Below are positions 11,143 to 62,609 of a stretch of DNA of 64,000 nucleotides, in pieces. Position numbers and translations under genes: made by a program. Location: the IMG/VR virus record IMGVR_UViG_3300031857_000028, positions 81,754-145,753 of that record. The stretch is one strand, 5' to 3'. The notes beneath the pieces are model-generated. The model worked only from the letters and a program-made list of their open reading frames with translations, was not told the origin of the DNA and did no database searches. Source of the stretch: a virus. Each line of letters starts with the position of its first letter. The stretch's first letter is position 1.

Positions 11143-11469
11143 TTAATTATCCTTTTTGAACGTTGACACCATCGTAGGTTTACCACCAGGATTTCCTGCT
11201 TTACGTTTCCGAGTAACTGCTGACCGTTTTTCACCTTTACTCATTGCTGCTGCAGAACGGGCAGGACGACATTTTGGATATTTAGCAGAGCCACCTTTTC
11301 GTTCTTTTTTTCCAGCAGATGCCCCACATGGTGGATGCTTTCCACTTTTATCTTTTCGTGAAATATCCACCCATTTTTGACGAAGCCATTTTCCCAAATT
11401 ACCTTTGGTCTTATACTTTTCGTCTAGTTCATCAACGACTTCTTCCAAAATATCCGAAAGACTTATCAT
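11143..11469 (-). CDS. Highly basic protein with capsid-targeting-like leader (DUF5872-like)
   Basis: This 108-residue protein starts MISLSDILEE, matching the capsid-targeting pattern with Glu at position 10. The remainder is extremely Lys/Arg-rich, with a GKWLRQKWVDISR segment, Cys-containing HPPCGAS and KYPKCRPARSA, and ends KAGNPGGKPTMVSTFKKDN. The tryptophan and C/P-C-R-P arrangement recalls the DUF5872 family of phages and giant viruses (from memory). A basic protein with a removable leader in the head cluster is a prime candidate for a DNA-binding internal protein injected with the genome. Confidence 0.62.
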   Translation of the reverse strand: MISLSDILEEVVDELDEKYKTKGNLGKWLRQKWVDISRKDKSGKHPPCGASAGKKERKGGSAKYPKCRPARSAAAMSKGEKRSAVTRKRKAGNPGGKPTMVSTFKKDN

Positions 11470-11801
11470 TTTTTACCCTTCTTCCATCCACCGCCCATAC
11501 TCTTATATTTCTTTGCAGCCCACAAATTTGCATAAGCAGAAGGATACACATCAAATTTTGCACGTGCGGCTGCTTTTGCTTTTGCCCACTTGTCGGGACT
11601 CGTGGGTGTATTTTTTTCAAGTAAAGCAGAAAATTCTTCTAACTTTTTCTTTTTATGTGGGTCATTATTATACGTTGAATATGTGTCAAAGTCAGGTTGC
11701 GGCGCAGAAAACGTATCCCCCGTGTATTCGTTGGTAGTTTCTTCACACCCGCATCCTTCATCACATCGACAAATATTTTCGTAAAAATCAATGTATTTCA
11801 T
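11466..11801 (-). CDS. Conserved phage protein with YPSAYAN motif
   Basis: This 111-residue protein has a Cys-rich N-terminus (CRCDEGCGCEE, residues about 12-22) that could bind metal, an acidic/Tyr-rich middle and a basic C-terminus with PDKWAKAKAAARAKFDVYPS, AYANLWAAKKYKSMGGGWKK. The latter module is common in T4-like environmental phages and some giant-virus proteins; function unknown. It is preceded by TATTTATA 21 nt before the ATG, so it may head a late transcript running into the portal and capsid genes. It overlaps the next gene by ATGA. Confidence 0.65.
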   Translation of the reverse strand: MKYIDFYENICRCDEGCGCEETTNEYTGDTFSAPQPDFDTYSTYNNDPHKKKKLEEFSALLEKNTPTSPDKWAKAKAAARAKFDVYPSAYANLWAAKKYKSMGGGWKKGKK

Positions 11802-11802
11802 A

Positions 11803-12165
11803 TTACTTTAAAAATTTTAATTTATAAATAGTTGAACTAATTAAACCAGAAATTTCATCCACGGTGTTGTTGAGTTCTCCGTCTTGAGGTAATTGTGTGC
11901 GAATTTCATCAACAAACTTCTGCAATCCTGCAAAATATTTTAACACCGAATCATCTTCAAAAATCTGATTCGACATAACATATCCGCGAATAATTCCATA
12001 TCGACCTTGGGCCATTTCTGCGTAGGAATCAATTAAATCAACAATCTCATCATAATATTCATTCAATGCTTTATGTGCGGCAAATGACGGTGTTTGTAAA
12101 TGAAACACATGTGCTTGCGTTCTACTGGACATCAATGTTCCTAAAAACTTTGCAATCGGTTCCAT
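11803..12165 (-). CDS. Helical protein, DUF5856-like (Dps-like bundle)
   Basis: This 120-residue all-helical protein has a start KFLGTLMSSRTQAHVFHLQT, then SFAAHKALNEYYDEIVDLID and EMAQGRYGIIRGY. The pattern of spaced His/Glu/Asp along helices resembles the DUF5856 group of phage proteins, which look like four-helix ferritin/Dps-type bundles. If so it could bind iron or DNA, but residues for a ferroxidase site cannot be confirmed by eye. It lies one base from the EF-hand gene upstream. Its final codons overlap the TATTTATA promoter of the next gene. Confidence 0.58.
   Translation of the reverse strand: MEPIAKFLGTLMSSRTQAHVFHLQTPSFAAHKALNEYYDEIVDLIDSYAEMAQGRYGIIRGYVMSNQIFEDDSVLKYFAGLQKFVDEIRTQLPQDGELNNTVDEISGLISSTIYKLKFLK
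11823..11830 (-). promoter_or_regulatory. Putative late promoter element TATTTATA
   Basis: Sense CTATTTATAAAT lies 21 nt ahead of the ATG at 11801, inside the last codons of the preceding gene. It is one of seven exact octamers placed ahead of minus-strand genes. Confidence 0.42.
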
Positions 12166-12166
12166 G

Positions 12167-12835
12167 TTACTTGTCCTTTTTATGTGATTTATATCCCTTG
12201 GACTTCATGTAATAAGCAAGCGCCCACGGATTGTCAATTTTCTTATATTTCTTCATTGCTTTGACGGTACCTTCCCATCCTTCAGGAGCAACTTCATCCA
12301 TACAATCTGCACCTTCACAAATACTTTCATGAGCTAGGTGTGGATCTTTGTGTGGATCTTTGTGGTCTTTGGATGGGTTTAAATGCGTACCTTCTGGCAT
12401 CATACCATCGGTGGCATCTGCAGGTGTTCCTTCCCCATCACCCAATGAACCTGGTTTATTCTTCTCATAATTCATGTTGTTATATACTGCATTCATGTAT
12501 TCCGCTGCCTTGGTGATTTTTGACTGAACCCATCCCTCTAGTTCTTCATCGTCACCCAACATGTTATAAATTTCTTTTGAATGCTTATTAATTGCCATCA
12601 AATCTGCTTTTGCCATCTGACCTTCGTGGTCATCAACAACGTCTGGATTGTCTGGATTTTCTTCGTTCAAATTTTCTTTCTTAGTCCGTAGTTTTGCTAA
12701 ATCTTCGCCTTCAATTTTCCCATCTTTATCAACGTCTAATTTTTTTTGATTGCCGGTAAGGTCTTCTTCGATAGTACGTGAACCAACCGGGGCTCCGATT
12801 CCACGTAGGTCTACTAATCCCATCATTCTAATCAT
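12167..12835 (-). CDS. EF-hand-containing acidic head-cluster protein
   Basis: This 222-residue protein has a perfect EF-hand calcium loop at residues 34-45 (DVDKDGKIEGED: acidic at 1, 3, 5, Gly at 6, Ile at 8, Asp at 12). Further on are VQSKITKAAEYMNAVYNNMN, a motif frequent in marine phage proteins, an acidic Gly-rich linker, a DHKDPHKDPH repeat that could bind metal, and a basic end with DNPWALAYYMKSKGY, also widespread. GGGAG precedes the ATG. It sits just downstream of terminase and may be a structural or internal protein needing calcium. Function is inferred from motifs only. Confidence 0.62.
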   Translation of the reverse strand: MIRMMGLVDLRGIGAPVGSRTIEEDLTGNQKKLDVDKDGKIEGEDLAKLRTKKENLNEENPDNPDVVDDHEGQMAKADLMAINKHSKEIYNMLGDDEELEGWVQSKITKAAEYMNAVYNNMNYEKNKPGSLGDGEGTPADATDGMMPEGTHLNPSKDHKDPHKDPHLAHESICEGADCMDEVAPEGWEGTVKAMKKYKKIDNPWALAYYMKSKGYKSHKKDK

Positions 12836-12883
12836 TGTTGTACTCCCGTTGGTTTAAGCTTTTTAACTATTCTATGTAATATT

Positions 12884-13210
12884 TTATTCATCATCAGATG
12901 AACCGTCTTTCTTTTTAAATCCGCCGCCGAGTGCTATACTAGACGCTGAGGCCCACAGGTAATCTTCCCATTCGTCACCGTAGTTTTTCTTAAATCGTGC
13001 CACCGTTTTAGAATTACCTTTCATCTTTTTACCAATCTCGTCTCTCTTTGCAATCTGTGCAGGTGACATCCGACGACGATTTTTACGCGTTTCTTTAGTG
13101 TACGGAGGAACAGTTTTTTCATCCAACGATTCATCGCGCATGAATCGAATTTCATTTATTATTTTATAAATTTCTTCTTTAATAATTTCTTCCAGTTCAC
13201 TACGTTTCAT
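12884..13210 (-). CDS. Small conserved basic protein
   Basis: This 108-residue protein opens with an amphipathic helix (KRSELEEIIKEEIYKIINEI) like other head-cluster proteins here, followed by a Lys/Arg-rich centre with RRMSPAQIAKRDEIGKKMKG and an end YGDEWEDYLWASASSIALGG. The last motif recurs in environmental T4-like phage proteins of unknown role. The ribosome site is part of a 10-bp palindrome, CTCCGCGGAG, and TATTTATA stands 36 nt upstream of the ATG, so the gene may head a late operon just after terminase. Confidence 0.6.
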   Translation of the reverse strand: MKRSELEEIIKEEIYKIINEIRFMRDESLDEKTVPPYTKETRKNRRRMSPAQIAKRDEIGKKMKGNSKTVARFKKNYGDEWEDYLWASASSIALGGGFKKKDGSSDDE

Positions 13211-13246
13211 AAAAAGTCTCCGCGGAGAATATAAAGTACATCACTA

Positions 13247-13254
13247 TATAAATA
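13247..13254 (-). promoter_or_regulatory. Putative late promoter element TATTTATA
   Basis: The octamer lies in the 69-nt gap between terminase and the next gene, 36 nt ahead of its ATG. It matches the other late-promoter candidates exactly. Confidence 0.45.
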
Positions 13255-13279
13255 TAACTAAATTTATATTAAAACGTTT

Positions 13280-14860
13280 CTATCCTATAAGCCAACGAAT
13301 ATCTTCGCTCTGATTGTTACCAATTTTCATTTCATATGGATTATGATCAAGACCACCTTGCTTGATTGCAAGAGGAATACTATTGTATGACGTTTTATCT
13401 AATGCCATTTTTGTTAATTCGATTCCTTCCTGTCGTAGACGAAGTGCTGTATCACGGACCCATAATCCAATACACAGTGCCAATACCAAGTCGTCATTAT
13501 ATCCTTGCAATGCCTCTGGACGACCGTTCTTCCAAATAAACGTTTCTAATTCTGCCATCATACGACCAGACCGAATCGTAAACGAATTATCTAACATATA
13601 CTCTTTGAGTCGTGCAATGATGAGTGGACGAGTGCGTTGGGAAATCATAAAGCCTGGAACCATGTTTCGTTCATCCCGATAATGTCTATTTGTTATTTGA
13701 TGTTCGACATCAACGTATTGTAAATCTCTTGACATATAAAAGAGATTTCGATATCCACGGTCAATAATTTGTTGAATGCAATTCCATCCGATAGAACTGT
13801 TATCGGGAATTAATAGTGCATCGTTGTATTCGGTGGCAATAGACACTAACATATTACCAAATTGTTTTGTCTCCACCTTACCTTTATATTCTGCAACTTG
13901 CATAGATTTTTCTACATCAATGACATGGAAGGTAGAATAATCTTCACCATCGCCTCGGGCAACGTCAGCACAAACAACATAAGATTTACCTGCTACAGGG
14001 TATTCCCATACCCACAAATTTCCATCAAATCCTTGCTTAGAAATAGGTTCTTGTACATACGTCTTTTTATAAAATTCAATAATATCTGGTGGGACCACGG
14101 TATTACCAGAAAAGATAAATGAGGCATCGTGTTCCTGTGATGCTTGCATTTCACCCATGAGTTCTGTCTGACGGTCACGCCAAGCTTGATCACGTTCTGG
14201 GTGTACTCGCCAGTCTAAGAGAATGGGATTGAATCCGTTTTCCTTATTCTCCGCTTGTTGCCACATTTTGTGGAAGAAATTACCAATACCATTTGGCGTA
14301 GAGAGAAGAATTGCTTGACCGCCTGTAGATAACGTACTTGATGCGGCTGTCCAAATAATGTCTGCATCATCAATGAATGCTGCTTCGTCAAGAATTAACA
14401 ATGACAATGCTTCAGAACGTCCTGCATCCTTACTACTTGCCACGGCTTTAATCTGTGACCCGTTTGAAAATTGTAACGAGAGTTTATTATCTGTTATACA
14501 TTGTCCACGCAACCATACGGGAAGATTTTGATGCATGAATCTTACTTTTGTGACCAAGTTCTTTGCTGTTTCTTGTTTAGTTGCAATAACAAGAATATTC
14601 TTATCTCGGTGAAACAACAATAACCACAGAGAATATCCTGCCACTAACGTAGAAATACCAATCTGACGCCCCTTCAGTACAATATTATAATCATGTTGTT
14701 GAAAATCTTTTAAAGAATTTTTTTGATAATGATATAAATCAAACAACACCCGACCTCGTACCGGGTGTTGTATGAACGAATATTTTGATAGAAAATATTC
14801 TGGACTTATTGCACATTTTTTATATTCCTGCTTAATTAACTCCTTTAACTCCTGTCCCAT
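13280..14860 (-). CDS. gp17: Terminase large subunit, gp17-like
   Basis: This 526-residue DNA-packaging motor and headful nuclease shows Walker A KGRQIGIST at residues 63-71, Walker B LLILDEAAF at about 154-162 and coupling motif STPNG at 187-191. The nuclease domain carries the first acidic residue in VVCADVARGDGEDYS (D299) and a late acidic pair in GYNDDLVLAL. Length is a little short of T4 gp17 (610 residues). The start is placed at 14860, where AGGAG lies 5 nt before the ATG and the upstream stop is one base away; a longer TTG-initiated form is unlikely. No clear small terminase was recognised in the window. Confidence 0.95.
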   Translation of the reverse strand: MGQELKELIKQEYKKCAISPEYFLSKYSFIQHPVRGRVLFDLYHYQKNSLKDFQQHDYNIVLKGRQIGISTLVAGYSLWLLLFHRDKNILVIATKQETAKNLVTKVRFMHQNLPVWLRGQCITDNKLSLQFSNGSQIKAVASSKDAGRSEALSLLILDEAAFIDDADIIWTAASSTLSTGGQAILLSTPNGIGNFFHKMWQQAENKENGFNPILLDWRVHPERDQAWRDRQTELMGEMQASQEHDASFIFSGNTVVPPDIIEFYKKTYVQEPISKQGFDGNLWVWEYPVAGKSYVVCADVARGDGEDYSTFHVIDVEKSMQVAEYKGKVETKQFGNMLVSIATEYNDALLIPDNSSIGWNCIQQIIDRGYRNLFYMSRDLQYVDVEHQITNRHYRDERNMVPGFMISQRTRPLIIARLKEYMLDNSFTIRSGRMMAELETFIWKNGRPEALQGYNDDLVLALCIGLWVRDTALRLRQEGIELTKMALDKTSYNSIPLAIKQGGLDHNPYEMKIGNNQSEDIRWLIG

Positions 14861-20582: not shown

Positions 20583-21524
20583 TTATTCGCTTCTCATAAT
20601 TAACCGATTATTCGTCGTAAAACTTCTATCGGCTACTATAGAACTATCACTAAATTCAATATTTGATGAAACAAAATAGGTACTTGATGTGTTATACACA
20701 TTAATAGTATATGTTGCGTTGGTGACAAAGTCGGACGATTTTACCAATCCCATCATACGCAACAGATTATGTGGTCCATACTGTACCATCGGTATAAACA
20801 ATCCTACTGAAAGAAACTGCGCATTTCTTGATGTTGCCAAACTACTGTGTACATAATTTTGAAATGTTTCTGGAACCGGTACTTGACTTGCACTGAGTGG
20901 CGTGTACATCAAATATGATTGTCTGTATTCTGGTGCATTTGCATTATGTGTTCCTACAATTACTCCCTCGTTTGTAACATTTCCATACACATCCTTCGTT
21001 CGTTCTACAAATCCAAATGCTGCAGCACCCGGCAAATTATCTGCAATAAGTATACCCATATCGCCACCGGAAATAATACACACTCGGTGGTCGTACAATG
21101 CACCTGAGTTGGGTGCGCCGCCGGTTGTTATTACCATCGACGTTGCTCCCGTGTTACCAATTCCCAACGACCGATTACTGCCCCCGACACTTCCACTACC
21201 ATCGTGGTCAAAACCAACGGTAACTGCTACACTATATCGGGTCGTGGATACGGCAATATTCCCATAATCCAATCGAATATATACAGGATACCCATTATTG
21301 TGCAGTACATCATTCATACTAAATACTTGATATCCCGTCGATCTCGTACTTGCTGGCGGCGGTGTTGCTGAACTTGTGTTAATACCCCCGACTGCATTGG
21401 TGTTTATCCACCCTGCAGCCGACAAGCTATCTCCTATAACCTTCACAAAACTAGTAAACGATTCTGATGTTGCCGTTGCAGGCGATGCCGCATGTAATAA
21501 TGAGGATGTAACAATAACTGTCAT
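20583..21524 (-). CDS. Fibre-associated structural protein, copy 1
   Basis: This 313-residue beta-rich, Gly/Ser/Thr/Asn-rich protein has no catalytic motif. It shares a scheme with the next gene: a tyrosine-rich FxxND...YPVYIRLDYGN segment near residue 80, glycine-rich middle and Asn/Tyr-rich C-terminus. The pair looks like an old duplication. Being in the fibre cluster, it may form a fibre tip or particle decoration that binds the host surface. The start is ATG 21524, six bases past GGAG and overlapping the upstream stop (TGATG). Confidence 0.58.
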   Translation of the reverse strand: MTVIVTSSLLHAASPATATSESFTSFVKVIGDSLSAAGWINTNAVGGINTSSATPPPASTRSTGYQVFSMNDVLHNNGYPVYIRLDYGNIAVSTTRYSVAVTVGFDHDGSGSVGGSNRSLGIGNTGATSMVITTGGAPNSGALYDHRVCIISGGDMGILIADNLPGAAAFGFVERTKDVYGNVTNEGVIVGTHNANAPEYRQSYLMYTPLSASQVPVPETFQNYVHSSLATSRNAQFLSVGLFIPMVQYGPHNLLRMMGLVKSSDFVTNATYTINVYNTSSTYFVSSNIEFSDSSIVADRSFTTNNRLIMRSE

Positions 21525-22393
21525 CAAGTACTCCGTAGTAAAAAGACGTTGTTTGTGTACATATTTGGAGAATTTGTTCCAAAATTTATGTAATCTCGTT
21601 GGGTTCCGTACACGGTATATGGTACAGTTTGTAATATTGCGTTTACGTCGGCAGTAAATGCAACTAATATATTTGGGGTCGGGTTCAGTGGTCGGCCTGC
21701 AAACGGGTAGATTAGACCAGCCACAAATCGTCCGTCATACAACGATGGCCTACGTGATGATTTAGAGTTTGGTATAAATCCGCTTTCTCTTGATGCCGGT
21801 GCATTTCCGTATATGGCAGTTTGCGAATATAAAATTTTTGTGGCAACTACATTTCCTTCTGTACCAAGCATATGAAATCCACTGCCTGTTGGTTGACCAT
21901 TCGTACCATACAGTCGTTCAAAAACAAAAAATTGACCGGTTGCCATTTGTGGAAAATAGGCAACCGTCATAAAAGATCCATCTCCACAACCATGTATAGT
22001 ACTACCGGAAACTGGTGTTGTGGTGTATGCGGCAACATTTGATATTTCTGTCAACGTATCAATTCCTGTGAACGATCCAGAACTATTATGTGCTGTACCC
22101 ATTTGACAATATAGTTGTACACCATTGATTTGGCCGCCACTAAAATATCGCACTCTAATAAATAATGGATTCGTACTTTGCCACGAATCATTGAACGCAA
22201 ATACGTCATACGTATACTGTTGATTTGCTGTACCAAATGGAGTTAGTGTATTTAAATTATCTAATGAACCCGATTGCACCGTTCTCGTAAATCCGCATGT
22301 AGTAAATGCTTCACGCACACTTGATACCGTTTCTACTAACGATGCGGCAACCTGCATATTCGGATTTAATATTGATTTATAGTATGATGCCAT
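21524..22393 (-). CDS. Fibre-associated structural protein, copy 2
   Basis: This 289-residue beta-rich protein is related in layout to its neighbour at 20583-21524: YTYDVFAFNDSWQ, then PLFIRVRYFSGGQ, a Gly/Ser-rich centre with FMTVAYFPQMATGQFFVFER and an Asn/Thr-rich end. No known enzymatic motif is present. It follows the 941-residue fibre gene with a clear GGAG ribosome site, so it is likely assembled on or near that fibre. Divergence between the two copies suggests separate binding specificities (inference). Confidence 0.58.
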   Translation of the reverse strand: MASYYKSILNPNMQVAASLVETVSSVREAFTTCGFTRTVQSGSLDNLNTLTPFGTANQQYTYDVFAFNDSWQSTNPLFIRVRYFSGGQINGVQLYCQMGTAHNSSGSFTGIDTLTEISNVAAYTTTPVSGSTIHGCGDGSFMTVAYFPQMATGQFFVFERLYGTNGQPTGSGFHMLGTEGNVVATKILYSQTAIYGNAPASRESGFIPNSKSSRRPSLYDGRFVAGLIYPFAGRPLNPTPNILVAFTADVNAILQTVPYTVYGTQRDYINFGTNSPNMYTNNVFLLRST

Positions 22394-22405
22394 TACATGA
22401 CTCCT

Positions 22406-25231
22406 TTATTCTAACACAATTCGATTGAATGACATGGAAATGTCAGTGGTAGTTCCAGACAGATTGGTTACTGTATAATATATAGTTGATACCGTCACTG
22501 GATCCATGTTTGCCCCGTTTGCTATAGGGGACAATGTATAATTATATAACGCCGGAGAACCGCTTAGAATCAAATCGGTTATGATTCCAGAATTATTTGC
22601 AGGGTCAGTTCCGATTGGTCGAGTTAAATCACTGTTTACGTATGATTGAGAACCATATAATCTAAGGCGCACGTCGGTATTTACTTGGGTAGAAAGTAAC
22701 ATAAACGTTTTTCCAAGAGAAATACTTCCGGTGTAATTTTGATTTGGTGATATACTTGCAACATTTGCCGAAACCGTCCCTCTACTCAAACTAGTTTGTG
22801 ACTGATTACTATTTAATGCATATGAAGCCGTTGTTGCAAAACTTGCAGAAGGAACGTTTGTAGATGACCCAATTCGCACCATTCCAATACTTGCACTTGC
22901 ATTTATAGGAACGTTGTCACCGTCATTTTCACTAACACCTAGTTGAACAAAACTACCCGACGTTAGATATACCACTGCGCCCGCATGTGTACCCGGGTCG
23001 TTGTGTTCAAAATATGCAACAGTAGAACTATACCCAACCGTTTCGGTCCCATCTACTACAATCGATATTCTTCTACCTAAGCCAGTGTTGGCGTTCCAGT
23101 GACAATACCCCGATATTGTATACCACCCGTCTGCCCCATTTGGTACTATTAATTTTGTTGGGTCACTTATATCCCAGAAATTCAAATCATCTCTACGTTC
23201 CGTAGTAAACGGAATGTAGTTCAAATTGTTATCTGTTAATGTTAAACTTGCCGACCTATATACATTCACACCGACAGTACTTCCAGTTAGATTAACCGTA
23301 ATTCCAGATAACGATGTTAGTGCATAACTTGATGTTATTGCTGTGTTTGCAAATGACGCACTTGTTGCAAAACTTGCACTAATAGAACTCGACGCCCAAC
23401 TTGCACTAACACTACTTCCTCCCCCAGTCCCGCCATTTAATGCAAATGATGCCGTTACTGCATATGACGCACTTTGAACAGACCCTAATAATACACTAGC
23501 AGTTGCTGCATATGACGCACTTTCGATTGAACCCAGTAATAGACTAGCCGTGGCAGCAGAAGTTGCTGTACTTGCTGTTGCACTATTTCGTGCCCAACTA
23601 CTCGTTCCTAAAAATCCAACTTGATTTACTAAAGAACTGGTAAATGCATTTGCTAATACGTGACCCGTTCTGGTAATTCGTGCCAATAAGTTACCACCTT
23701 GTAATTGAACGGGACGTATACCAAGATTACTTCTAAATTCAAAATCAGTTCCGGCAAATTCTGAACCAATAACAAATTGGTTATTTGAAACATCCCCAGT
23801 AACCCCGAACCAGCTGGTAAATCTATTTGTTCTTGCTAAACCAAACACTACACTGGTTTTTGCCGAAGTACCTGTAGTAAAGTGGTATGCCACTTGATTG
23901 GAATCATTACTTGGGTCAAAGTTTTCATTAACACTAAACCCATTACTTGATTGCGGATAAAATATTTGACTACCCAATACTAATGTATTTGGGCTGGATA
24001 TGGCCAGTGAACCGCTGACTACGCTTAATCCAGAAGTTCTTAACGATCCGGTAATTTCTGTGTCACCGATAACTCGTAGTTCTACCGGTAAACTACTAGA
24101 CAATGTTAACGAACCCGTAATTGTCTGATTTCCAATGAATATATTTGAACCGGTGGTTGCAAACGAACCCGTGTTAATTGGTGCACCACCTCCACCACCA
24201 TTCAAAGCAAACGATGCCGTTAATGCAGTTGTTGCATAACTTGCGCTGATTGAACTGGATGCCCAACTAGATGAAATTGCATTAGATTGTGTAGAACCAT
24301 TCCCATCTGAACCAACCCCAACTTCTCGACCGAGGTCTGCAAATGGTGTGGAAGAATGTCTGAAAAAATCAAATACTGCTTTACAGCCAACTGAAGTATT
24401 TATCGTTGATGCACAGATACCAACGCGGTTTGGGAGTTGAGTACTAAACCATGATGAAGCAGGTTCACTAAATAATATATCATATTCAACACCATCAAAC
24501 GAACGTGCAAAGTATAATGTAGTTCCATCAAAATCAATTCTATGAAATACTGTCGGTGAAAATGCACCACCTTCATATGAAATTGAATTGAAACTTGTAA
24601 AACTATTATATCTTAAAACTTGTGTATTTAATAGTCGAATATCATTACTCGGTCCACAAAAAATTCTGAAGACTGTAACTTTTCCGCTAACCGTATCTCT
24701 CAAGTATATTGCAGAATTATGATATGTATTTTTCCCTAAAAGTTCCATTCTAGTAAGTACTGTAAAACCTCCAGTAGGTAAAACTTTTTCTATGGCAGTA
24801 GGGTTGTCCCCCGAACCAGTCAGTGGAGTTATGATACACCGTCCGTTCAATACTGTAACTGTTCCACTGCCAGTTGCCAAAGTCCATCCCGATGGAATTC
24901 CACTACCACTGACGGTAAACTCATCATTTAAGACCGACGGATTTGTCGGTGGAGCAAATGGGTCATATTTCGTATAAATTGCTTGACCACCTCCACCGCC
25001 ACCGCCATTCAACGCATACGAGGCAGTTAATGCGTATGAAGAAGAATTTGCTGTGTCCGCAATAGAGGCAGTTGGATTTGGCTTGTAATTCAGTAATACC
25101 AATTCACCATTATGTTTTTTAGAGAATAGCCGGCCATCGTAAGAATTAAATGCTAATTCTCCGACTGCCAAATATTGTGGATCTGGTGTGGAACCTGATG
25201 TTGGGTTACTTTTTACAATAATTCCTGCCAT
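22406..25231 (-). CDS. Tail fibre protein with repeated ASYALNG modules
   Basis: The N-terminus of this 941-residue protein (PQYLAVGELAFNSYDGRLFS) is the short attachment-type motif common at the start of phage fibres. It is followed by repeated SSYALTASYALNGG-like modules around residues 65-80, 325-350, 555-640 and 800, separated by beta-rich domains. One domain (about 95-300) looks like a concanavalin/LamG-type fold. Such alanine/serine modules probably form trimeric stalk segments. The same module is used in the 839-residue protein at 27765-30284, so domain shuffling between the two is likely. It presumably recognises the host surface. Confidence 0.78.
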   Translation of the reverse strand: MAGIIVKSNPTSGSTPDPQYLAVGELAFNSYDGRLFSKKHNGELVLLNYKPNPTASIADTANSSSYALTASYALNGGGGGGGQAIYTKYDPFAPPTNPSVLNDEFTVSGSGIPSGWTLATGSGTVTVLNGRCIITPLTGSGDNPTAIEKVLPTGGFTVLTRMELLGKNTYHNSAIYLRDTVSGKVTVFRIFCGPSNDIRLLNTQVLRYNSFTSFNSISYEGGAFSPTVFHRIDFDGTTLYFARSFDGVEYDILFSEPASSWFSTQLPNRVGICASTINTSVGCKAVFDFFRHSSTPFADLGREVGVGSDGNGSTQSNAISSSWASSSISASYATTALTASFALNGGGGGAPINTGSFATTGSNIFIGNQTITGSLTLSSSLPVELRVIGDTEITGSLRTSGLSVVSGSLAISSPNTLVLGSQIFYPQSSNGFSVNENFDPSNDSNQVAYHFTTGTSAKTSVVFGLARTNRFTSWFGVTGDVSNNQFVIGSEFAGTDFEFRSNLGIRPVQLQGGNLLARITRTGHVLANAFTSSLVNQVGFLGTSSWARNSATASTATSAATASLLLGSIESASYAATASVLLGSVQSASYAVTASFALNGGTGGGSSVSASWASSSISASFATSASFANTAITSSYALTSLSGITVNLTGSTVGVNVYRSASLTLTDNNLNYIPFTTERRDDLNFWDISDPTKLIVPNGADGWYTISGYCHWNANTGLGRRISIVVDGTETVGYSSTVAYFEHNDPGTHAGAVVYLTSGSFVQLGVSENDGDNVPINASASIGMVRIGSSTNVPSASFATTASYALNSNQSQTSLSRGTVSANVASISPNQNYTGSISLGKTFMLLSTQVNTDVRLRLYGSQSYVNSDLTRPIGTDPANNSGIITDLILSGSPALYNYTLSPIANGANMDPVTVSTIYYTVTNLSGTTTDISMSFNRIVLE

Positions 25232-58240: not shown

Positions 58241-58741
58241 TTACTTGATTACCACCGTCTTAGCTTTAGTCTCCTGCGTTTGAACTTTTCGTGGAATAGT
58301 AATATAAAGTAACCCATTATTGAACGTTGCCTCAACCTTATCGGCATCCAACTGGTCAGTGAGCCTAAATGACCGACTAAACGAACTACGTTTGAGTTCA
58401 CGGAGAAGATAAACAGATTTATCAGTTTGCTCGACCTGTTGGGAGGCTTTTCCAACAATACTCAATACATCATCTTCAATTTGAATGGAAATATCTTCCT
58501 TATGGAATCCTGCAATTTCCGCTTCAATTTCAACTTTATCATCAAATGAAAGAACATTAACCTTTGGATAAGCCGCCTTACTGAAGGGTTCAATTCCAAA
58601 TCCTTTGTAGAGGTCTGGGAACTGTCCTCGGAATGCTTCATCGAAGAATCGGTCAAAAGTGTTGACCAGATTGTCACGATTGAATTCCATTTCTTTTTCA
58701 ATAACCGACTTTGGTACTCGCTGAATTGTCCACTTTGTCAT
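58241..58741 (-). CDS. Small heat-shock protein, Hsp20 family
   Basis: This 166-residue chaperone has the alpha-crystallin domain at about 60-150: YPKVNVLSFDDKVEIEAEIA, GFHKEDISIQIEDDVLSIVG and a LLYITIPRK strand with a closing KTVVIK. T4-like cyanophages also carry Hsp20, thought to protect folding of virion proteins. The start is placed at ATG 58741 with GGAG six bases upstream; the first in-frame ATG (58753) is part of that ribosome site. A TATTTATA element is 78 nt upstream in a leader with two hairpins. Confidence 0.9.
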   Translation of the reverse strand: MTKWTIQRVPKSVIEKEMEFNRDNLVNTFDRFFDEAFRGQFPDLYKGFGIEPFSKAAYPKVNVLSFDDKVEIEAEIAGFHKEDISIQIEDDVLSIVGKASQQVEQTDKSVYLLRELKRSSFSRSFRLTDQLDADKVEATFNNGLLYITIPRKVQTQETKAKTVVIK

Positions 58742-58819
58742 AAAAATCTCCATATTTGGACGTTACCATTTCCACTATTGGACAATGGTATATAAGACCT
58801 CCATAGAGCGTCTTACATG

Positions 58820-60983: not shown

Positions 60984-61031
60984 ACAAATCTCCGTAATAT
61001 TACTTTAACAGAAACCTATATGGTACTACAG

Positions 61032-61369
61032 TGGACCCGAGGGGAATCGAACCCCTGTCCGAGATTGCTTCCTATTAAGGATTTATGTGTGTAGTCAGTT
61101 ATTGAAATTCATTCAGTTCTCGTTAACTAACAAACGTAAACTGAACATAGAACCGAAGTATCACCTTGAATACGGTTCCTATCAAGGCTATACCACATGA
61201 ATAAACAAATTAACCCTATGCGGTAATCTCAGATTAATTCGTCAGGCTGCAATTAAGCAGCGAGGGCTAAATTATAGTTGCCAGTTAGTATTTTTGGTCT
61301 GTTTTACTCGTCTTACCAAACGAGACACAAAGCTTAATCATCTACACCCCGTCGAAGCCGGTCAGGCCC
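61032..61369 (-). ncRNA. ssrA: tmRNA (ssrA), one-piece, phage-encoded
   Basis: A complete one-piece tmRNA of 338 nt. The 5-prime end GGGCCTGACCGGCTTCGACG is the universal tmRNA start, and the 3-prime end has a T-arm with GGTTCGATTCC. The first 7 nt pair with CGGGTCC near the 3-prime end (two G-U pairs), discriminator A at 61032, CCA not encoded. Downstream of the start is a pseudoknot (stem CTCGT/ACGAG; loop TTTGGT pairing ACCAAA) just ahead of the resume codon. The tag frame at 61253-61282 encodes GNYNLALAA and TAA. tmRNA frees stalled ribosomes and marks the product for proteolysis. A sigma70 promoter serves the preceding gene, sharing its last base with the tmRNA. Confidence 0.96.
61253..61282 (-). 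other. tmRNA proteolysis-tag reading frame (GNYNLALAA)
   Basis: Resume codon GGC at 61280-61282, then AAC TAT AAT TTA GCC CTC GCT GCT and TAA. The final LALAA-type end is what ClpXP-type degradation needs; the first residues differ from common E. coli ANDENYALAA. Confidence 0.9.
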
Positions 61370-61584
61370 TAAAACATATGTTCCTTTAAAATTCTAAAGA
61401 AGGTAAACAATAATATAACCGATGCGGCTGCAACAATTAATACAATAGGAGATAATACTAATAGCCACGAATAATTAATATAGTTCATTACCTTTAGTAG
61501 TATCATAACCAATTCGGATATCATCAGAATTGTATATGGTCCGATGTCTACTATTACATGATTTTTATTTGTCTGTTTGACCAT
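61369..61584 (-). CDS. Two-helix small membrane protein before tmRNA
   Basis: This 71-residue protein has hydrophobic segments at about 17-34 (YTILMISELVMILLKVM) and 42-63 (LVLSPIVLIVAAASVILLFT). The G of its TAG stop codon is the first nucleotide of the tmRNA. TTGACA-N17-TATATT stands upstream with a GGAG ribosome site. Function unknown; could be a small holin or membrane effector. Co-transcription means RNase P must separate message and tmRNA (inference). Confidence 0.62.
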   Translation of the reverse strand: MVKQTNKNHVIVDIGPYTILMISELVMILLKVMNYINYSWLLVLSPIVLIVAAASVILLFTFFRILKEHMF

Positions 61585-61607: not shown

Positions 61608-61636
61608 AATATACACACAACCATCTGCTATGTCAA
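61608..61636 (-). promoter_or_regulatory. Sigma70-type promoter for membrane protein and tmRNA
   Basis: Perfect TTGACA at 61631-61636, 17-nt spacer, TATATT at 61608-61613. It overlaps the end of greA and stands about 24 nt ahead of the next ATG. It is identical in elements to the promoter at 62581-62609. Confidence 0.75.
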
Positions 61637-62092
61637 GTTCTCATGGATAGTTTTAAAACTTAAAATTTTATACATACCTTTCCCACTGGGAGTATATACT
61701 TGAATAGTATCTCCTGAGATTTTACCAACTAGTGTTGATCCTAATGGAGATTTTAATGTCACTTCTTCCCACTCGTTACAAAAATTACTAGTTAATTCTG
61801 ACGCAACAATATTAACCGTTTTTATAGTTTTGTCAAGAACATTTTCAAGAATGACTATAGAGCCTACGCCGATTTCGTGTTTAGATATTTTACCGATATC
61901 AATTTTTTTACACGAATTCAACCTTGTAGTAAGTTGGTTTAATCGTAAATTTAAAAAATACTGTCTACTAATAATTTCTGAAAACTCTGAATTTTCTCTC
62001 AAGTCACCGGAGTTCATGGCAACTTCCAATTCTTCCGGTATAGTAACTGTTAATTCATGTTTTATTTTTTCAATTTCTTGTTCAATATCCAT
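61628..62092 (-). CDS. greA: GreA-type transcript cleavage factor
   Basis: This 154-residue homologue of GreA/GreB has an N-terminal coiled coil with the tip motif SGDLRENSEF; D30 and E33 match the catalytic D41 and E44 of E. coli GreA (HGDLKENAEY). The C-terminal domain has VGSIVILEN, VTLKSPLGSTLVGKISGDTI and QVYTPSGKGMYKILSF, the FKBP-like Gre fold (GreA: NSPIARGLIGK, VKTPGGEVEF). It inserts in the RNA polymerase secondary channel and rescues backtracked complexes. I start at ATG 62092 (GAGAG upstream), discarding a TTG extension. A terminator stands in its leader. Phage Gre proteins are rare. Confidence 0.92.
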   Translation of the reverse strand: MDIEQEIEKIKHELTVTIPEELEVAMNSGDLRENSEFSEIISRQYFLNLRLNQLTTRLNSCKKIDIGKISKHEIGVGSIVILENVLDKTIKTVNIVASELTSNFCNEWEEVTLKSPLGSTLVGKISGDTIQVYTPSGKGMYKILSFKTIHENLT

Positions 62093-62103
62093 GATACTCT
62101 CGT

Positions 62104-62146
62104 AAAAAGACAAAATAGAAACGAGAGATATTCCCGTTTCTATTTT
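62104..62146 (-). terminator. Terminator or attenuator in the greA leader
   Basis: A perfect 12-bp stem (AAAATAGAAACG / CGTTTCTATTTT) with an 11-nt loop is followed by GTCTTTTT in the sense direction, ending 12 nt before the greA ATG. It separates the strongly promoted gene at 62187 from greA, so greA would need read-through or anti-termination. Confidence 0.82.
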
Positions 62147-62186
62147 GATAAATATAAAACTCTTTTTATAGAGTTTAATTATTTAA

Positions 62187-62580: not shown

Positions 62581-62609
62581 AATATACTACAGTCTTACTT
62601 ATTTGTCAA
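62581..62609 (-). promoter_or_regulatory. Strong sigma70-type early promoter
   Basis: Perfect TTGACA at 62604-62609, 17-nt spacer and TATATT at 62581-62586 are followed by a leader of about 70 nt with a TGCTCA/TGAGCA hairpin and GAGG before the ATG. This is the best consensus match in the window. Confidence 0.82.

Follow-up and report, generated by a model that had tools for sequence, protein, structure and literature searches.

The 64,000-nt stretch of DNA analysed here (the window) formed the right-hand end of an IMG/VR contig of 145,753 bp (145.8 kb). This contig had matches to portal, gp23-type capsid, terminase, baseplate wedge, SbcCD-like nuclease, DNA polymerase, DnaB-like helicase, and UvsX proteins, and these structural and replication matches identified it as a T4-like myovirus; its nearest named relatives were Flavobacterium immuto phages and Microcystis phage Mel-JY01 (about 37–53% protein identity). 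The locus under study displayed the following organization, all on the minus strand: a gene for a 104-aa conserved phage protein (62187..62501; no Pfam or PHROG match), a terminator-like hairpin (62111..62147), the phage gre gene (61628..62092; 154 aa, with ATG at 62092 and the stop codon ending at 61628), a promoter-like site (61608..61636) overlapping the gre end, an ORF for a 71-aa putative membrane protein (61369..61584; phrog_1374 of unknown function, with a homologue in relatives), and a one-piece tmRNA gene ssrA (61031..61369). An Hsp20 small heat-shock protein of the phage was encoded near this locus (window 58241–58753).

Gre factors are widespread in bacteria. The gre ORF contained the N-terminal coiled-coil domain GreA_GreB_N (PF03449: 37.8 bits against a cut-off of 24.5, E 2.2e-9) and the C-terminal RNA polymerase (RNAP)-binding domain GreA_GreB (PF01272: 39.4 bits against a cut-off of 26.9, E 6e-10; 61652..61870, minus strand), and the latter carried a conserved SP[ILV]G motif with invariant S115, P116, and G118; an in-frame TTG at 62113, upstream of the ATG, was an alternative start that would add seven residues. 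The top NCBIfam models were those of GreA (TIGR01462 greA, E 2.7e-25), but the score of 89.2 bits fell below the 139-bit TIGR01462 cut-off and the GreA name under NCBI rules (TIGR01462, PRK00226) did not apply; the protein was therefore a divergent GreA-like member rather than an NCBI equivalog. E. coli GreA (1GRJ) was aligned by phmmer to residues 10–145. An AF2 model built with nine phage homologues as input (mean pLDDT 83, pTM 0.52) displayed the Gre fold, namely a tip joining two helices plus a C-terminal beta domain, and its first Foldseek matches were RNAP-bound Gfh1 (3aoi), GreA (1grj), and GreB (2p4v) (E 1e-10 to 1e-7; TM 0.53–0.60, with uncertain domain orientation). Searches with phage Gre gave no Gre match or family in PHROGs, no Gre match at E 0.001 in the BFVD fold search, and no match in the protein search of genome contigs. 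The original prediction of a phage GreA homologue at 61628–62092, which had named PF03449 and PF01272 as its check, was thus borne out: both domains scored over their cut-offs, and a full-length two-domain Gre protein was recognized by Pfam and by its fold match to GreA/GreB/Gfh1.

The coiled-coil tip GDLREN (codons 29–34; 61991..62008, minus strand) lay within the sequence ...AMNSGDLRENSEFSE..., and its D30 and E33 were aligned by phmmer with D41 and E44 of E. coli GreA (1GRJ), so the DLRE tip with both GreA acids had been read correctly beforehand. Among 12 distinct phage homologues, the Asp41 equivalent was invariant (12/12), and the Glu44 equivalent was retained as Glu in ten homologues but replaced by Asp in the other two, giving the variant tips GDADDN and GDWGDN (L028:3298-3765 and the L221 gre, 5497 onward). 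The tip is thus open to change across the family; the L028 and L221 proteins are possible functional variants in which cleavage might be weakened. These two acid-rich tips, loosely similar to the Gfh1 tip, and the top Foldseek match to RNAP-bound Gfh1 would suit an anti-host regulator of the secondary channel, which would displace host GreA/DksA and favour phage promoters and for which cleavage would be secondary or lost (Gfh1-like or DksA-like). It would likewise suit such a regulator that transcription in T4-infected cells is lowered by DksA, with which GreA/GreB compete (PMC6024815). However, the canonical D-x-x-E tip was kept in 10/12 homologues with its Asp invariant, as expected if cleavage is selected, and the window protein itself had the plain GreA-type tip GDLREN instead of the acid-rich tip that marks Gfh1 members; an anti-host regulator is accordingly an unlikely reading of phage Gre.

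When viral contigs were scanned with Gre, the tmRNA, and the hairpin in front of gre as queries, gre was identified on 17 further contigs (18 including the window's own), which together encoded 12 distinct proteins. Close gre pairs had dN/dS of about 0.10–0.15, indicating that Gre was maintained by purifying selection, and the occurrence of such homologues on independent viral contigs argued against a chance ORF. No near relative was found among 50,697 phage records, in which the closest sequence was 29% identical; GreA matches among GenBank phage records were mostly unverified or unannotated, and one of them, the GreA of the Y6 'phage' record, grouped with proteobacterial GreA in the tree (see below) and looked like a host GreA. 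Several such records with GreA may be host DNA, which would speak for an assembly artefact or bacterial contamination here as well, but gre was located between the same phage genes on the 18 IMG/VR contigs from different samples, and the gre contig carried T4-like capsid, portal, terminase, and baseplate genes; this shared synteny already contradicts an artefact or contamination, the chance of which we regard as negligible.

Eight relatives, found via the 104-aa gene, had no gre, and their contig records contained no Gre match anywhere. The 104-aa protein was kept in gre-bearing and gre-less relatives alike (pattern VTADDVH..L...VRTRL.FINSVLR), and the tmRNA was kept at 7/8 gre-less loci. Between the two, the gre slot of these relatives (L030-L037) was occupied by a glycosyltransferase-like gene, usually together with a UDP-glucose-dehydrogenase-like gene, names that we presume from reading the sequences. 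The absence of gre from relatives with otherwise similar gene order would be expected of a neutral passenger, i.e., a gene taken from a host and without function in the phage; against this stood the strong purifying selection and deep divergence within the phage clade, the fixed position of gre, and its conserved flanking promoter-like site and hairpin (see below), which make a mere passenger highly improbable.

The promoter-like site at the gre end (TTGACA-17-TATATT) faced the membrane ORF and the tmRNA, and its equivalent (TTGAC...TATATT) was present at all gre-bearing loci examined. A second sequence motif of this type (TTGACA-17-TATATT; 62581..62609, minus strand) was located upstream of the 104-aa gene. 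The strict pattern TTGACA-N16-18-TATAWT was seen four times in the window, where 0.23 occurrences were expected, and the T4-type late promoter TATAAATA was not enriched; the excess of the former suggests that such sites are read by the host's housekeeping polymerase, on which Gre would act. No RNAP gene was found among the large ORFs scanned, which were a subset of the contig ORFs, so that absence of a phage-encoded RNAP does not strictly follow.

The hairpin upstream of gre, about 20 nt from the start of the gene, had a 16-bp stem with a T-run behind it and covaried in gre-bearing relatives: its primary sequence was conserved, pairing was kept at 100% across 11 distinct sequences with three pairs changed on both sides, and the covariation score exceeded those of all 500 shuffles and of all slid versions. 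It occurred once in the window, and all 14 contigs with the hairpin pattern had gre directly after it. E. coli greA is autoregulated via a leader terminator (GraL) (PMC6829880), and by analogy the phage hairpin may be a GraL-like attenuator providing feedback control of phage Gre. Its strict association with gre and its compensatory changes speak for such an attenuator, a tentative assignment that we hold to be possible rather than probable and that is compatible with the cleavage-factor reading set out below. The hairpin could also simply serve to terminate transcription of the 104-aa gene upstream of it, since the gre-less relatives, which lacked this hairpin motif, had another terminator-like hairpin in the corresponding position downstream of that gene. 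No Rfam family corresponded to the leader hairpin, and a crude scan of acidobacterial greA leaders gave no matching hairpin.

The tmRNA gene was complete, with its start 258 bp downstream of gre, and it was identified by ARAGORN and by Rfam RF00023 (128.1 bits against a threshold of 47, E 9.3e-50). Its tag frame GNYNLALAA* (61253..61282, minus strand; ARAGORN) had a hydrophobic degradation-signal ending; tags were GNYNLALAA or GNQNLALAA at other gre-bearing loci and varied in L030-L037 (GNYNSPALALAA, GNEYLALAA, GNTQLALAA, GNNQLALAA, and GNYTLALAA). A G3-U70 pair was read in the acceptor stem, and CCA was not encoded; G3-U70 is typical of alanine charging. No SmpB was found on the contig, and host SmpB is presumed to serve the phage tmRNA. 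All 12 contigs with the tmRNA pattern had gre close upstream. The first base of the tmRNA was the last base of the TAG stop codon of the membrane ORF (window 61369), and exact 5' processing of the tmRNA would deprive the membrane ORF mRNA of its stop codon; the overlap may be due to chance, for relatives such as L002, L022, and L028 had an extra small ORF in between.

The origin of phage Gre was addressed with a maximum-likelihood tree of 86 sequences: nine phage proteins, 32 Acidobacteriota GreAs, and 45 others (Bacteroidota, Proteobacteria, Chloroflexota, and others). In this tree, for which the bootstrap was not fully settled, the nine phage proteins made up one clade (100/100) with a long branch and deep internal divergence, and a further 100/100 branch placed the phage proteins and every one of the 32 Acidobacteriota GreAs on one side and the remaining 45 sequences on the other, the position of the phage clade inside Acidobacteriota not being fixed. 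The best cellular matches were likewise from Acidobacteriota (37–38% identity, E down to 5e-26), against one-genome E-values of 1.8e-13 in Bacteroidota and of 1e-9 and 1.6e-14 in two other phyla. Most of the Acidobacteriota sequences in the tree had been selected for being best matches of phage Gre, and the sampling did not extend to phyla such as Gemmatimonadota, so that 'Acidobacteriota-type' is firmer than 'Acidobacteriota host'. Phage Gre was apparently captured, once, from an Acidobacteriota-type GreA.

The host itself is inferred from such comparisons. The phage tmRNA tags ended in LALAA, an ending shared by many of the Acidobacteriota tags sampled, whereas most of those sampled from Bacteroidota ended in YALAA/YAMAA; tmRNA nucleotide similarity did not discriminate between host phyla. 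Structural genes pointed to a Bacteroidota host, against which stood the much weaker GreA matches of this phylum and the mostly YALAA/YAMAA ends of its sampled tags. Cyanobacteria lack Gre (PMC10802570), and a cyanobacterial host without Gre, considered because the top baseplate match was a Microcystis phage, was disfavoured by the grouping of Gre with Acidobacteriota and by a CarboxypepD_reg/Plug/OMP_b-brl_3 protein on the contig. The latter, an 892-aa TonB-receptor-like outer-membrane protein (L007:991-3669; contig 20991–23669, minus strand), had matches in only five phage records and is consistent with a Gram-negative host. In two Acidobacteriota genomes (L215 and L216), greA and ssrA were about 7 kb apart on one contig and on the same strand.

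Taken together, we consider it probable that gre encodes a functional GreA-type transcript-cleavage factor acting on host RNAP, captured from an Acidobacteriota-type source and placed beside a ribosome-rescue tmRNA. The C-terminal domain would dock on host RNAP beside the secondary channel, the coiled coil would enter this channel, and D30/E33 would help the polymerase cut backtracked RNA, allowing stalled or arrested complexes on phage DNA to restart; the phage tmRNA with host SmpB would free stalled ribosomes, and one small locus would thereby supply both polymerase and ribosome rescue during infection. Binding to RNAP, cleavage activity, host polymerase use, timing, benefit to the phage, and any joint action with the tmRNA are inferred parts of this reading, which as a whole is supported by (i) the two Pfam domains, the GreA models, and the fold match, (ii) the conserved tip acids and the low dN/dS, (iii) the 100/100 grouping of the phage clade with Acidobacteriota GreA, (iv) the linkage of gre with the tmRNA and hairpin patterns (12/12 and 14/14 contigs, respectively), and (v) the promoter-like excess with no RNAP gene among the ORFs scanned. 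Points against a cleavage factor were the scores below NCBIfam GreA cut-offs, an N-terminus shorter by about 11 residues, the low pTM of the model, Asp for Glu44 in two relatives, and the absence of gre from related phages. In addition, matches were found in 99/99 Bacteroidota genomes; a host would normally have its own GreA, and the phage copy may be redundant or act otherwise.

Of the functional part of the original prediction, a Gre factor carried by the phage and intact at its tip is well supported by the sequence, the fold, conservation across the family, and purifying selection; rescue of stalled polymerase and competition with host factors or ppGpp/DksA, also proposed there, stay conditional. 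Its idea of a modified template gained circumstantial support: the contig encoded a Mom-family DNA modification protein and two HMC-alpha-glucosyltransferase-like proteins (L006:15040-15840 and 11183-13289, with identical contig coordinates), which make a modified phage template plausible. It had left out the most informative context, namely the tmRNA, the promoter-like site, the hairpin, and the Acidobacteriota-type origin. Gre and the tmRNA may act together or may just be neighbours in an accessory region; a more specific arrangement, a dedicated 'rescue island' in which both are co-selected because modified DNA and damaged transcripts stall expression and Gre is feedback-controlled via the GraL-like hairpin, is conceivable but rather doubtful. 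Conservation of Gre in a phage clade would point to backtracking of polymerase as a limit on phage growth severe enough for a phage to carry a remedy, and the gre–tmRNA linkage suggests joint selection for polymerase and ribosome rescue in infected cells.

Gre factors and phage tmRNAs are each known already; the new part, within the literature searched, would be a phage Gre clade paired with a tmRNA, and no report of this clade or pairing was found there, most subscription papers being outside its coverage. Flavobacterium phage vB_FspM_immuto and Microcystis phage Mel-JY01 resembled the gre-bearing phage in capsid (53% and 48% identity, respectively), terminase (about 52%), and baseplate (37–40%) proteins but had no Gre match, and the whole Mel-JY01 record gave no PF01272 match. 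Phage-borne ssrA is known from the mycobacteriophage Bxz1 group, Bacillus phage G, methylophage Melnitz, and huge phages (PMC4131195, PMC9004378, and PMC7162821), in addition to GenBank matches; the window tmRNA differed from these in sequence and tag, and no description of an adjacent gre was found in these reports. E. coli GreA (1GRJ) and GreB (2P4V) shared the fold, tip acids, and C-terminal SP motif with phage Gre, but identity was about 20% in structural alignment, the score lay under the NCBIfam cut-offs for both GreA and GreB, and nothing in phage Gre corresponded to residues 1 to ~11 of E. coli GreA. Thermus Gfh1 shared the fold (3aoi) but displayed the acid-rich tip SSDDYDDS instead of GDLREN. 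Acidobacteriota-type GreA (e.g., L093, L095, and L135-L164) was similar in its two domains, an N-terminus unlike the MTxxG type, and a GD-x-x-EN-x-E tip, and it was aligned over the full length to the C-terminal end at about 30–38% identity; unlike it, phage Gre was phage-borne and constituted one deep long-branch clade with its own conserved cis elements and tmRNA linkage.
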